Source of the DNA: Candidatus Moraniibacteriota bacterium
GTDB lineage: Bacteria > Patescibacteriota > Minisyncoccia > Moranbacterales > UBA2206
Direction: 5' to 3'
DNA length: 37,271 nucleotides
Assembly (NCBI GenBank): GCA_013334765.1
Contig: JAAXWW010000008.1
Location: 1-37,271 of the forward strand
Of this stretch, positions 561 to 29,721 are shown piece after piece. Made by a program: the position numbers and the translations under genes. The notes beneath the pieces are model-generated. The model ran no database searches. It worked only from the letters and a program-made list of their open reading frames with translations, and had not been told where the DNA came from. Every line of letters begins with the position of its first letter. Within the stretch, counting starts at the first letter, position 1.

Positions 561-885
561 GATACCCTGCCTCCCGCAACTGAAAGTTATTATCCGGCGC
601 TTGCTTTTTTACAAAGAACGATTAACCCTTCTTAAGATCATCTTTCTGTTTTCTATTCATTCTGAAAGCAGGAAGATATCCTTAAAATCCTAGATTTCTA
701 CATATGGAAGAACTGAATAAAAAGACCACCCTCGGCGAGGGTGGTCTTGGCATTTTCTAAATTCTTTTTCCTAGAATGAAACGCTCAAAGCCATCCTCGA
801 TCGAGGGTTATTATCATTGCGGTTATTATTCTGTATTTGGATGGCTGTTTTCATAAGGCTATTTAATCAGATCACGATAAAAATG
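561..885. other. intergenic stretch with terminator and palindromes
   Basis: I see no gene here. Contents: the leader of the twin small genes (a weak -10-like GATAAT near 580-590 on the minus strand), the terminator at 719-748, a perfect 12-bp palindrome CCTCGATCGAGG near 795-806, and an 8-bp inverted repeat AGCCATCC (789-796) / GGATGGCT (839-846). The palindromes have no assigned role. Confidence 0.5.
719..748 (-). terminator. strong intrinsic terminator
   Basis: A perfect 12-bp stem (722-733 with 737-748, loop GGC) is followed on the minus strand by U5 at 719-723. It terminates transcripts from the Phd-nuclease fusion gene upstream. Confidence 0.85.
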
Positions 886-4266: not shown

Positions 4267-5745
4267 TTATTTGTTTTTCATTTTTTCATAAGCATCCGCG
4301 GCACAAAGTATGCCCTCTTCATCGAACCATTTCCCCATCAGTTGGAAACCGAAGGGCATCCGCCGGCTGGCGGACTTGCCGTCCGTTTCAACCGAAGGAC
4401 CAGGAACCGATATGGCCGGAACGCCGGCGATATTCGCAGTGATAGTGAAAATATCAGCCAGATACATCTGAAGCGGATCGTCCGCCTTTTCCCCTATCCT
4501 GAAAGCAGGAGTCGGAGTTGTCGGAGTCAGAATCATATCAGCTTTTTTGTATGCCTCCTCGAAATCTTTCCGAATGAGAGCCCTGACTTTCTGGGCTTTC
4601 AGGTAATAGGCATCATAATATCCGGCAGAAAGAGCGTAGGTCCCAAGCATGATCCTTCGTTTCACTTCGCTCCCTATGCCGTAGCGCCTGGAATCAAGAT
4701 AAGTTTCAAGAAGGGTGCGCGGCATATCAATGTCTCCGTTTTCAATATCGGTATTCATGTTGTCGTCGATTCGTATTCCGTATTTTATCCCGTCATATCT
4801 AGCCAGGTTGGAACTCACTTCGCATGGCTGAATAATATAATATACTGGCAAAGCGTATTTAGAATGAGGCAACTCGACCTCAACGATTTCCGCGCCAAGG
4901 CTTTTGTAACTGTCAATAACCTTCTCGATTGACTCCCGCATATCACCTGCAAGGTTATCCAGGTACTCCTTCACGATTCCGATCCTGAGCCCCCTTATGT
5001 CTCCAGTCAGGTAATCCTGATACGATTTCGTCCAGCTCCTGGCAGATGTCGCATCGAATTTGTCTTCTCCAGCAATAGCGCTGAGGACGATGGCGGCATC
5101 TTCGACTGTTTTTGCAAATGGCCCGATCTGATCCAAGCTGGATGCCATCGCGATTGCGCCATGCCTCGAAACTCTGCCATACGTAGGTTTAAGCCCTACC
5201 ACTCCGCAAAACGATGCGGGCTGACGGATTGAGCCTCCAGTATCCGTACCAAGCGACCAAACAGCCATATCAGCCGCAACCGACGCAGCCGAACCGCCTG
5301 ACGATCCGCCTGGAACACGACTCGGATCATGCGGATTCTTGGTCACCCCATAGGCGCTATTCTCTGTTGAAGAACCCATCGCGAACTCATCCATGTTAGC
5401 CTTGCCCAAAAACACCGCGCCTTCTTCCCTTAGCCTTTCGATAACTGTCGCATCATAAGGCGCGACGTAGTTATCCAGAATCTTAGAAGCCGCAGTTGCA
5501 CGCACTCCTTTCACAAGTATCATGTCTTTTATCGATCCTGGAATACCTTCAAGCAGCCCTATTTTTTCGCCATTTTTCACCTTTTCATCAACGCGCCTAG
5601 CCTGCTCCAACGCCAAATCCTTAGTTATACTGAGATAAGCGAAAATGTCTTTGTTTTTATCATCAATACGAGACAAATATTCCTCGGTTAATCCGACTGA
5701 GGTTTTCTCACCGCTCATTATTTTTTCATGCAATTCCTTGATCAT
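4267..5745 (-). CDS. gatA: Asp-tRNA(Asn)/Glu-tRNA(Gln) amidotransferase subunit A
   Basis: A 492-residue amidase-signature enzyme that releases ammonia from Gln for GatB to amidate misacylated Glu-tRNA(Gln) or Asp-tRNA(Asn). The catalytic triad is visible: K73 (GIPGSIKDM), S148 (VPGGSSGGSAAS) and S172 (DTGGSIRQPAS). Length and C-terminal LMGKWFDE are normal. Near the C-terminus, residues ~456-464 (GKSASRRMP) are encoded by a GC-rich palindrome that looks like an in-frame insertion before FGFQLMGKW. gatC lies 51 bp upstream; gatB is not in the window. No SD precedes the ATG. The downstream membrane HEPN-like gene is contiguous. Confidence 0.96.
   Translation of the reverse strand: MIKELHEKIMSGEKTSVGLTEEYLSRIDDKNKDIFAYLSITKDLALEQARRVDEKVKNGEKIGLLEGIPGSIKDMILVKGVRATAASKILDNYVAPYDATVIERLREEGAVFLGKANMDEFAMGSSTENSAYGVTKNPHDPSRVPGGSSGGSAASVAADMAVWSLGTDTGGSIRQPASFCGVVGLKPTYGRVSRHGAIAMASSLDQIGPFAKTVEDAAIVLSAIAGEDKFDATSARSWTKSYQDYLTGDIRGLRIGIVKEYLDNLAGDMRESIEKVIDSYKSLGAEIVEVELPHSKYALPVYYIIQPCEVSSNLARYDGIKYGIRIDDNMNTDIENGDIDMPRTLLETYLDSRRYGIGSEVKRRIMLGTYALSAGYYDAYYLKAQKVRALIRKDFEEAYKKADMILTPTTPTPAFRIGEKADDPLQMYLADIFTITANIAGVPAISVPGPSVETDGKSASRRMPFGFQLMGKWFDEEGILCAADAYEKMKNK
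4355..4380. repeat. nested palindrome inside gatA
   Basis: Inner arms TCCGCC (4359-4364) and GGCGGA (4369-4374) with loop GGCT, and outer arms GGCA (4355-4358) and TGCC (4377-4380). It is read in frame as part of GKSASRRMP. Homologous enzymes usually run straight from the Pro/Gly-rich turn into GLQLMG-like sequence. Confidence 0.6.
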
Positions 5746-27225: not shown

Positions 27226-28134
27226 CTATTTCGCGATTATATACGCCTCTATGCCGATATATTCATCGACGAGATGCATGCCGAGACCCTCGAAGAATTT
27301 CTCGCTGCCATAAAGGACATTCCACTTGATGCGATCGAAATCGAAGTGAAGCCTCGCCTTGAGCGCTCCGCCCTCGGCAGCCTCTAGAAGCGCCGGGAAA
27401 CTGATCTCGTGCGTTACGCCCTTGATCGTCATATCAGCGAGCACTTTACAGTGCGGAGAATATTCATCCACCCCTTTCCTCGGAACGATGCTTTTGATCT
27501 TCAGCGAGCTTTCAGGGTATTTTCCGACATCGAAGAAGTCGTCCGACTTGAGATGCTTGATGAGGATCTCATTCCACTTGGGATCTTCAAGATCGGTGTC
27601 CTTGATCGAATTCATGTCGACGACGAACTCGCCGGAAACCGCCTTTCCATTCTCGACTATAAGCTCGCCGCTATTCAGGGCAAGCGTCCCGATATGGCGC
27701 GAATTGACACTGCGAGCCGTCCAATAGATGACACTATCAAAAGTGTCGACAACGTATTTCCTGTCTTCGAGTTTCGGTTTGGGAGGAATGGCGATGTCTT
27801 CGCTCTCAATGTCATATCCAGCCTCTTCCCATTCCTCAAGTCCGCCTTCGAAAAGCATCACGTCGTCATACCCCGCTTCGACGAGCCTTTGGGCTGCAAT
27901 AGAAGCTGCGAGCGATTTCTTCTTCGTCGCATAGACGACTATGGTCAGCAGCGGATCGATGACGAGCTTTTTCATGTTCTCAATAAAAGCTATCTCATAG
28001 ACGCAAGCATTGACCGCTGTCGGAATGTGCTTGTGGTTATAGAATTCGGGTGTCACGACGTCGAGCAAAATGAAAGACACTTTCCTGTCAATCAGCGATT
28101 TGAGTTTCTCAATCGATATTTTTTTCATTTTCAT
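27226..28134 (-). CDS. rhodanese-like domain fused to YceI-like domain
   Basis: A 302-residue protein. Residues ~5-110 are a rhodanese fold (ISFILLDVVTPEFYNHKHIP onward, GGLEEWEEAGYDIE at its end), but the catalytic Cys loop reads VVYATKKKSLAAS, so A69 stands where Cys is expected: no sulfurtransferase activity is likely. Residues ~127-300 are YceI-like (YVVDTFDSVIYWTARS..., KSDDFFDVGKYPESSLKI, ADMTIKGVTHEISFP), a lipocalin-like barrel that binds polyprenoid-type lipids. It has no signal peptide, so it is probably cytoplasmic, although YceI proteins are usually exported. It stands alone on its transcript. Confidence 0.88.
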   Translation of the reverse strand: MKMKKISIEKLKSLIDRKVSFILLDVVTPEFYNHKHIPTAVNACVYEIAFIENMKKLVIDPLLTIVVYATKKKSLAASIAAQRLVEAGYDDVMLFEGGLEEWEEAGYDIESEDIAIPPKPKLEDRKYVVDTFDSVIYWTARSVNSRHIGTLALNSGELIVENGKAVSGEFVVDMNSIKDTDLEDPKWNEILIKHLKSDDFFDVGKYPESSLKIKSIVPRKGVDEYSPHCKVLADMTIKGVTHEISFPALLEAAEGGALKARLHFDFDRIKWNVLYGSEKFFEGLGMHLVDEYIGIEAYIIAK

Positions 28135-28255
28135 ATATTTATTCTGCTGTCAAAAATTATTATCAAGTTCTTGCGATTAACCTGATTATGCCTTTATTTT
28201 AGCAGAAAAACGGGTTGGGTACAAACAGGGCACACCGATCCGCCCTTACTGGAAA

Positions 28256-28282
28256 TTGACATTTGGAACATTATGCTATAGT
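28256..28282 (+). promoter_or_regulatory. promoter of the proS leader
   Basis: TTGACA (28256-28261), a 15-bp spacer and an extended -10 (TG at 28274-28275, TATAGT at 28277-28282). The start would be 28289-28290, at the ATG of the leader ORF (28291). Confidence 0.6.
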
Positions 28283-28290
28283 TTTAACGC

Positions 28291-28374
28291 ATGAAAGGAA
28301 CGGCAATCACAACCAGCTTCCCGCGACCGGCATACCCTAGACCCTTAGGCTGCTTGTGCGTGTCCGGAATATAG
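28291..28374 (+). CDS. putative Pro-rich leader peptide of proS
   Basis: A 27-codon ORF ending in TAG, apparently leaderless. It begins MKGTAITTS, and residues 10-18 read FPRPAYPRP: four Pro codons (CCG, CCG, CCT, CCC at 28321-28344) in eight. It is placed between a good promoter and a terminator before prolyl-tRNA synthetase, exactly where an attenuator would need it. The tail (LGCLCVSGI) is encoded by the 5' arm of the antiterminator. It is too short for a database family; the regulatory role is inferred from position and codons. It could be a chance ORF. Confidence 0.5.
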   Translation: MKGTAITTSFPRPAYPRPLGCLCVSGI

Positions 28375-28424
28375 GAAAAGGATATCTTTGATACCCAGAA
28401 GCAGCCTAGGAAGGGCTGTTTTTT
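28336..28424 (+). promoter_or_regulatory. proS attenuator: antiterminator / terminator switch
   Basis: Terminator: CAGCC (28402-28406) / GGCTG (28414-28418) followed at once by U6 (28419-28424). Antiterminator: TAGGCTGCTT (28346-28355) pairs perfectly with AAGCAGCCTA (28399-28408), using up the terminator's 5' arm. A third pairing, CCTA (28336-28339) / TAGG (28346-28349), could hold the antiterminator arm and lies among the Pro codons. Confidence 0.55.
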
Positions 28425-28491
28425 AGTTCCCGCCTTCCCAAATACCATCGCATATACTACACTTAACATATTAAAATCAAGCAAAACCACC

Positions 28492-29721
28492 ATGAAACAA
28501 TCACAGCTGTTCACCAGAACCCAGAAAGAGATTTCCAAAGACGAAGTGAGCATCAATGCCCAGCTTCTGATCAGGGCCGGATTCATCGACAAGCTGATGG
28601 CCGGAACGTATACGATACTGCCACTCGGTCTTCGGGTGATGAAGAAGATAGAACAGATAATACGCGAAGAAATGAATGCGATCGACGGACAGGAAATTTT
28701 CATGCCGACGCTTCATCCCAAAGAAAACTGGATCAAGACAGGAAGATGGGATTCTATGGATGATTTGTATAAAGTGAAGGATTCGAGCGGCCGCGAGATG
28801 GCTCTCGGACCGACTCATGAAGAGGTCGTCGTTCCGCTCATGAAAAGATTCATCAGCTCATACAAGGACCTGCCTTTCGCCGCATACCAGTTCCAGAACA
28901 AGTTCCGCATGGAACTCCGTTCGAAATCCGGAATCCTCCGGGGACGCGAGTTCATGATGAAGGACCTCTATTCGTTCCATGCCGATGCAGGCGACCTTGA
29001 CGCATATTACGAAAAAGCCAAGCAGGCATATCTCAAAGTGTTCGAAAGAGTCGGACTCAAGAACGAGACCTATCTCACCTATGCTTCCGGCGGATCATTC
29101 TCGAAATATTCCCACGAATTCCAGACACTGACGGAAGCCGGGGAAGACTCGATCTATGTCTGCGAAAGATGTCGCATAGCGATCAACAAGGAAATCATCG
29201 ACGATCTGGAACATAGTTGTCCGGAATGCCATGAGGGCAATCTCGACGAGAAGAAAGCGATTGAGGTCGGAAATATCTTCAAACTGATGACGAAATTCAG
29301 CGCTCCGTTCGATCTCAAGGCAAAGGATGAGAACGGCGAGGATATCGGGATCGTCATGGGATGCTATGGCATCGGATTGGGACGCCTTATGGGAACGATC
29401 GTCGAAGTGCTCCATGATGAAAAAGGCATGATGTGGCCTGAGGCAGTCGCACCTTTCAAGGTTCATCTCCTAAGCCTGGGAGAAAATGAAGAAGCCCAAA
29501 AGATATATCAATCACTCGTTGAAAAAGGAATCGAAGTCCTCTATGACGATCGGGACACCAGCGCCGGAGAGAAATTCGCCGACTCAGATCTCATCGGCAT
29601 CCCCTATCGCGTCGTCGTCAGCAAGAAATCTTTGGCAAGTGGCGGAGTGGAAGTGAAGAGAAGGGACGAGAGCGAAAGCAGGATCGTCAGGACAGAAGAG
29701 CTTTCGAATATTCTGAAATAA
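28492..29721 (+). CDS. proS: prolyl-tRNA synthetase, short form without editing domain
   Basis: A 409-residue class II synthetase that charges tRNA-Pro. Start MKQSQLFTRTQKE; motif 1 region LPLGLRVMKKIEQIIREEM; TLHPKENWIKTGRW; motif 2 FRMELRSKSGILRGREFMMKD-like region; motif 3 MGCYGIGLGRLMG; C-terminal anticodon domain (FKVHLLSLGENEEAQ onward). Bacterial ProS normally carries a ~180-residue editing insert between motifs 2 and 3; here CERC and CPEC, which flank that insert in long forms, are only ~25 residues apart, so the insert is gone. Two tRNA-Pro genes lie ~6 kb away. A leader ORF and hairpins precede it. No SD. Confidence 0.96.
   Translation: MKQSQLFTRTQKEISKDEVSINAQLLIRAGFIDKLMAGTYTILPLGLRVMKKIEQIIREEMNAIDGQEIFMPTLHPKENWIKTGRWDSMDDLYKVKDSSGREMALGPTHEEVVVPLMKRFISSYKDLPFAAYQFQNKFRMELRSKSGILRGREFMMKDLYSFHADAGDLDAYYEKAKQAYLKVFERVGLKNETYLTYASGGSFSKYSHEFQTLTEAGEDSIYVCERCRIAINKEIIDDLEHSCPECHEGNLDEKKAIEVGNIFKLMTKFSAPFDLKAKDENGEDIGIVMGCYGIGLGRLMGTIVEVLHDEKGMMWPEAVAPFKVHLLSLGENEEAQKIYQSLVEKGIEVLYDDRDTSAGEKFADSDLIGIPYRVVVSKKSLASGGVEVKRRDESESRIVRTEELSNILK

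Follow-up and report, generated by a model that had tools for sequence, protein, structure and literature searches.

How genes are regulated in the uncultured, genome-reduced, ultrasmall Patescibacteria is poorly known, and the DNA upstream of proS in one Patescibacteria (Moranbacteria-like) bin of 0.97 Mb poses the question in a concrete form: is the prolyl-tRNA synthetase gene controlled by the short proline-rich ORF and the pair of alternative hairpins that lie in front of it? Our analysis indicated that it very likely is, with the leader acting as a ribosome-mediated transcription attenuator of proS that responds to charged tRNA-Pro. This reading is made without transcript, translation, or starvation data.

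A proline-codon leader and two mutually exclusive hairpins precede proS

We refer to the whole stretch of DNA analyzed, 37,271 nt, as the window; the features described here lie on its plus strand unless stated otherwise. Inspection of the sequence and a pattern match identified a promoter at 28256-28282, composed of TTGACA (28256-28261), a 15-nt spacer, and an extended -10 element, (TGC)TATAGT (28277-28282). An ATG 8 nt past the -10 element opens a leader ORF of 27 codons (28291-28374; MKGTAITTSFPRPAYPRPLGCLCVSGI) that is predicted to be leaderless. Four regulatory Pro codons fall within 28321-28344 (CCG at 28321, CCG at 28327, CCT at 28336, and CCC at 28342); among the 417 ORFs in the whole window that begin with ATG and span 15-45 codons, only 4 have at least four Pro per eight codons. 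The presumed regulated gene, proS (28492-29721), encodes a short-form prolyl-tRNA synthetase of 409 aa with tRNA-synt_2b and HGTP_anticodon domains. Because the upstream neighbor, a rhodanese/YceI protein gene on the minus strand (27226-28134), is divergent from proS, and because no second consensus promoter was seen by inspection between the terminator and proS, the gene is probably dependent on the leader. An eight-base likeness between the start of the leader and the start of proS (ATGAAA..CAATCACA) is likely due to chance.

The leader RNA can be divided into four arms. Arm 1 (CCUAG, 28336-28340), supported by RNAalifold and covariation, pairs with 28345-28349, the start of arm 2. Arm 2 (UUAGGCUGCUU, 28345-28355) forms the 5' side of the antiterminator and encodes LGC(L); its assignment rests on covariation with arm 3 and on a comparison of own and cross pairings. 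Arm 3 (AAGCAGCCUAG, 28399-28409) is common to both hairpins, and arm 4 (GGGCUG), together with the U6 that follows it (28413-28424), makes with arm 3 an intrinsic terminator. The antiterminator helix (28345-28355 with 28399-28409) has 10 Watson-Crick pairs and one G-U pair and closes over an inner stem (28357-28398) taken from the minimum free energy fold, whose apical loop holds the stop codon (28372-28374) and whose inner helices covary in 51 sequences. The terminator pairs CAGCC (28402-28406) with GGCUG (28414-28418) and runs directly into U6 (28419-28424). Since arm 3 overlaps the 5' half of the terminator, the two hairpins are mutually exclusive. A first-pass annotation, made from the sequence alone, had proposed this promoter, the 27-codon proline ORF, and the exclusive antiterminator and terminator before proS, and all three were confirmed in the sequence.

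Folded as a single sequence, the leader was unremarkable (z -1.7), and the strength of the case rests on comparison across relatives. When we scanned for the combined architecture of promoter, ORF, and switch, 16 distinct matches were returned from 1.55 Mb against 0 from 1.47 Mb of block-shuffled sequence; the 1.55 Mb counts the fetched loci on both strands, and these loci were enriched for family members.

Homologous proline leaders precede proB and proS in relatives

The nearest genomes available for comparison differ from the source genome at the genus level, and no same-genus relative was included. Searching the DNA of the family returned same-strand matches upstream of proS, with E values from 3e-6 to 5e-4. 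Complete homologous leaders (MNNFKRTNSIPADPHPRQLGCLCVFEING, MNNFKYANSIPADPRPRQLGCLCVFEINR, and MNNFKHVYNFPAAPQPRQLGCLCVFKINF) were each found about 30-40 nt upstream of proB (TIGR01027), and one proB operon behind a Pro leader had the order proB-proC-proA-proS. More broadly, the Pro leaders of Moranbacteria-type relatives precede proB, proB-proS, or a short ORF followed by proS; leaders with Pro codons and the same arms occur upstream of proB or proS in ten other genomes, and their peptides conserve P..P..PR.LGCLCV. A Pro-rich ORF at most 450 nt from proS was not found in about 100 relatives, because most of these have a proS without a leader or carry the leader before proB or before a short ORF further upstream.

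At three loci a 115-aa protein without a Pfam match is encoded between the Pro leader and proS (L179, 1136-1480; L183, 1133-1477; L184, 5130-5474). Judging from its position, this protein is probably proline-regulated as well. In the source genome proB was not detectable, as would be expected if a proB-proS operon had shrunk to leader and proS; we infer that the proS locus probably arose in this way. The proS leader would then be a switch apparently kept after loss of the proline-biosynthesis gene that accompanies it in relatives.

The sensing codons change with the downstream gene

We built covariance models from six leaders (R1) and from fifteen leaders (R2) and ran them on 34 family genomes, 131 order genomes, and 384 class genomes. 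At the order level, a match at E<=0.05 was obtained in 66 of 131 genomes, some of these not being real members. Matches without leader architecture were left uncounted (L186, L187, L188, L190, L191, L193, L235, L243, L245, L249, and L253), as were, for the same reason, part of the class-level matches and reverse-strand echoes of true matches.

Across the family, the codons in the leader switched with the gene behind it. His codons (ILHAHNPLQLGCFCV) were found in a leader upstream of hisG (TIGR00070), Phe/Tyr/Trp codons (FYSFSYFYFWFS) upstream of prephenate dehydratase (pheA), Met codons (MSMMHMMT) upstream of a SAM hydroxide adenosyltransferase-like (SAM_HAT-like) gene, and Arg codons (HPRRRTP; HRRNGRP) upstream of a GNAT acetyltransferase gene, with acetylornithine deacetylase (argE) next in one case. 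Outside the order, an SPVPP leader precedes a proC-like gene, an FFFFF leader precedes an ACT-domain ORF, and an SSWW (Trp) leader precedes trpS with a small ORF in between. At least two Pro codons were present in 11/11 pro-linked leaders versus 2/25 other leaders (Fisher 1.3e-7), a value that is indicative only, as members share ancestry. One leader, G017_gnat, was excluded from the codon statistics and from the ribosome-position folding described below because the automatic terminator finder chose the wrong hairpin.

A single locus often has two different leaders (Arg plus Pro in G012, for instance, or branched-chain plus aromatic in several genomes), so that hitch-hiking is unlikely. In L220, L221, L222, L226, L227, and L230, the leaders stand in tandem, a branched-chain-codon leader being followed about 0.9-1.1 kb further on by an aromatic-codon leader; the aromatic leaders precede hypothetical ORFs and, in several loci, prephenate dehydratase. 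Counting against our reading, several leaders (branched-chain, Asn) lie upstream of genes without known function. At L184 (minus strand, about 4547-4860), we also observed a short ORF, MKKEVYKNSIFWCAFKI, with one Trp codon and a terminator; it precedes a PALP gene resembling tryptophan synthase beta, and the cluster also contains hisG and a gene of the Trp-repressor family.

The source genome itself contains two further members. On the minus strand of the window, a second leader ORF (771-854; MKTAIQIQNNNRNDNNPRSRMALSVSF) with six Asn codons follows TTGACA at 889-884 and is itself followed by a terminator (719-744, minus strand; CCACCCTCG/CGAGGGTGG, then a U-rich run). The covariance-model match spans 719-807 on the minus strand, and the leader as a whole (719-854) lies upstream of small Cys-rich hypothetical ORFs. 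The third member, on contig 4 (20263-20420; L234, 364-521), encodes MKNAIKNNSYLFIFFILWVLETGFDLRIMKKEA with aromatic and aliphatic codons and precedes a 365-aa ORF without a Pfam match.

The alternative hairpins covary across the family

In an alignment of 15 members, the terminator (3:4) was paired in 98% of cells, with two-sided changes at 8 of its 10 pairs. The antiterminator (2:3), to which the alignment was not fitted, was kept in 87.5%, and pairing 1:2 in 89%. For each of the three pairings, the covariation score was reached by 0 of 500 shuffles. Over the larger set (52 members, 51 distinct sequences), the stored structure showed 244 two-sided changes versus 83 in shuffles, and none of 500 shuffles equalled the real data on any measure. 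Arm 2 paired more strongly with its own arm 3 (-17.8 kcal/mol) than with the arm 3 of other members (-11.3 kcal/mol), a difference met by 0 of 10,000 permutations. The shuffle values, like the Fisher value, overstate independence.

The ORF, its Pro codons, the covarying alternative hairpins, and the match of codon to gene across homologues are thus shown computationally. The first-pass annotation would have been refuted had the Pro codons or the pairings been unconserved in relatives; the opposite was found, in ten other genomes and with both pairings covarying. Its proposal of ribosome-mediated attenuation by Pro-tRNA charging is supported by this comparative evidence, with stalling and response still inferred, and the proS case has widened to a whole multi-amino-acid family.

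Predicted effect of ribosome position and a proposed mechanism

To relate the hairpins to translation, we placed a ribosome at each codon in turn and folded the RNA beyond it in an equilibrium calculation. With the ribosome at the stop codon, the terminator formed in 36/36 members; this is a computed result, not a measured one. Relative to the end of the stop codon, arm 2 ends a median of 17.5 nt upstream and arm 3 starts 24 nt downstream, spacings that suggest that the gap is occupied, and the arms are held apart, when a ribosome is at the stop. The fold changed to the terminator a median of two codons upstream of arm 2. In nearly all members the regulatory codons (RRR, HAH, MMHMM, YSFSYFYFW) lay within the antiterminating zone, G012_arg being an exception in this calculation. 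In the proS leader, the first three Pro codons lie within the zone and the fourth is too far downstream to antiterminate. The model thus predicts that, of the four Pro codons noted in the first-pass annotation, the first three do the sensing.

One result counts against the main reading: when no ribosome is present, the proS leader folds at equilibrium into the antiterminator, and termination therefore seems to need leader translation and kinetics. It is possible that co-transcriptional kinetics alter the need for translation to turn proS off.

We propose the following sequence of events, inferring where transcription starts, that the leader is translated, that the ribosome stalls, and which way the response runs (more readthrough on starvation). 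Transcription would begin at or beside the AUG, and a 70S ribosome would translate the 27-codon leader. When Pro-tRNA is ample, the ribosome would reach the stop codon in the antiterminator loop and separate arm 2 from arm 3; with these arms held apart, the 3:4 hairpin with its U6 would form, and transcription would end, yielding an RNA of about 135 nt. Under Pro-tRNA shortage, the ribosome would stall at the first Pro codons and cover arm 1, leaving arm 2 free to pair with arm 3, so that the terminator would be blocked and proS read.

Most leaders are predicted to be leaderless

The AUG of the proS leader lies 8 nt past a promoter-like -10 element, a spacing common to most family leaders and found also before leaderless proS genes of relatives. 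From this promoter spacing, and without 5'-end mapping, we predict that most leaders of the family are leaderless. About a quarter of the members appear to carry a short 5' UTR. By inspection, the hisG, G020 Arg, G007, and source-genome aromatic leaders apparently have 15-25 nt before the ATG; the last of these, the third source-genome member, has its ATG about 20 nt past the -10 element and is not leaderless. As a separate observation, in many Parcubacteria relatives (e.g., L010, L028, L034, L036, L057, and L085) the ATG of proS lies about 35 nt downstream of a TTGAC, a spacing from which we infer a leaderless synthetase mRNA.

Alternative explanations

The region could instead encode a stand-alone small RNA, such as a rod of the SRP or 6S type, or else a functional small protein, its link to proS being incidental. 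The leader region does take a rod-like fold and has a promoter and a terminator of its own, GAAGCAGCC within it is reminiscent of SRP RNA, and Rfam models find no SRP RNA in the source genome. Against this, no Rfam model matched at E<=10 except for chance snoRNA/sRNA matches; the homologues precede amino-acid genes, switch codons with the gene, and sometimes occur as two leaders with different codons at one locus; and the arms differ in sequence yet stay complementary, which is unexpected for SRP RNA, 6S RNA, or a conserved protein. We consider this explanation very unlikely, and an SRP/6S-type RNA was rejected on the absence of an RF00169 or RF01854 match at the leader and on the codon-gene match. 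Separately, SRP RNA was not found by RF00169 in the source genome and 50 other order genomes, nor by RF01854 in the source genome, in a search that was positive in 11/14 control genomes; the SRP RNA of the order genomes is divergent or was missed by the search.

The same terminator switch could also be driven by the peptide, through nascent-chain stalling at FPRPAYPRP that senses EF-P or an antibiotic. Pro-rich nascent chains slow ribosomes, and the hairpin logic would apply equally well. However, the Pro codons of the proS leader are spaced and never form PP, the peptide context varies among homologues, and in homologues that share this RNA the codons are those for His, Arg, Met, or aromatic residues, fitting the downstream gene, which points to tRNA charging; arrest by the peptide is thus also highly improbable. 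Control of proS by a T-box or other riboswitch can be all but excluded. Synthetase genes in Firmicutes are often under T-box control, and sub-threshold T-box matches do occur elsewhere in these genomes, but RF00230 gave no match at E<=10 in 28135-28520, and the nearest match in the source genome is on a different contig; the absence of a T-box at this locus, noted in the first-pass annotation, held. The sub-cut-off matches, of up to 70 bits, include C1:151618-151820 in the source genome and were seen in 32/36 relatives, suggesting that these genomes probably use divergent T-boxes beside attenuators.

Wider implications and comparison with known systems

Attenuation by tRNA charging remains our preferred reading, and a bolder form of it seems probable to us: that Patescibacteria of this class use a dedicated, repeatedly re-targeted attenuator chassis as a main amino-acid sensing system, with Pro, His, Arg, Phe-Tyr-Trp, Ile-Leu-Val, Met, Trp, or Asn codons swapped in. 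Whether the chassis extends to much of the phylum is no more than a possibility. If this reading is true, it would imply tight transcription-translation coupling in Patescibacteria, and leader codons would indicate the amino acid to which a given hypothetical gene responds. Candidates for such codon-based reading are the 115-aa ORF before proS, the ORFs behind aromatic and branched-chain leaders, and the Cys-rich ORFs behind the Asn leader.

Ribosome-mediated attenuation is a textbook mechanism. To our knowledge, no attenuator of proS or proB has been described, and we found no paper on leader-peptide or transcription attenuation in Patescibacteria/CPR in the literature searched. The Rfam amino-acid leaders (Trp, His, Leu, Thr, and Phe) gave no match at E<=10 in 28135-28520 and none at the gathering score in the window. 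The enterobacterial leaders trpL, hisL, and pheL (modeled in PMC1183508) likewise have a short ORF with cognate regulatory codons and arms 1-2-3-4 with the alternatives 1:2, 2:3, and 3:4 and a U-run terminator. Unlike them, the proS family has no sequence match to these leaders, a predicted leaderless AUG in most members, arm 2 within the ORF, the stop codon in the antiterminator loop, and a covarying inner stem; it thus follows the trp/his logic (PMC1183508) with a different geometry. The T-box riboswitch shares the logic by which uncharged tRNA turns on a synthetase or biosynthesis gene, but neither its sequence nor its structure is present at the proS leader.

The novelty first suggested for this locus, attenuation on a leaderless leader peptide in a CPR-type genome, held in part, given that about a quarter of the members are apparently not leaderless and that leaderless attenuation is already known. 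In Sinorhizobium meliloti, the trpL ORF lies at the 5' end of its RNA (rnTrpL), an example of attenuation on a leaderless leader peptide (PMC7298713), and in mycobacteria, leaderless short ORFs with consecutive Cys codons lie upstream of an operon (Canestrari et al., 2020, cited in PMC9031893) and are described as regulating translation of downstream genes in response to Cys (PMC9031893). Leaderlessness alone is therefore not new. S. meliloti trpL, however, senses Trp only, differs in sequence and phylum, and lacks a multi-amino-acid repertoire, and in contrast to the mycobacterial poly-Cys ORFs, the proS family has a covarying intrinsic terminator and antiterminator. What appears to be undescribed is a large family of attenuators in Patescibacteria, re-targetable and mostly leaderless, to which an apparent proS/proB proline attenuator belongs; the variant features of the family are a start predicted to be leaderless in most members, a stop codon inside the antiterminator loop, and a repertoire of many amino acids.
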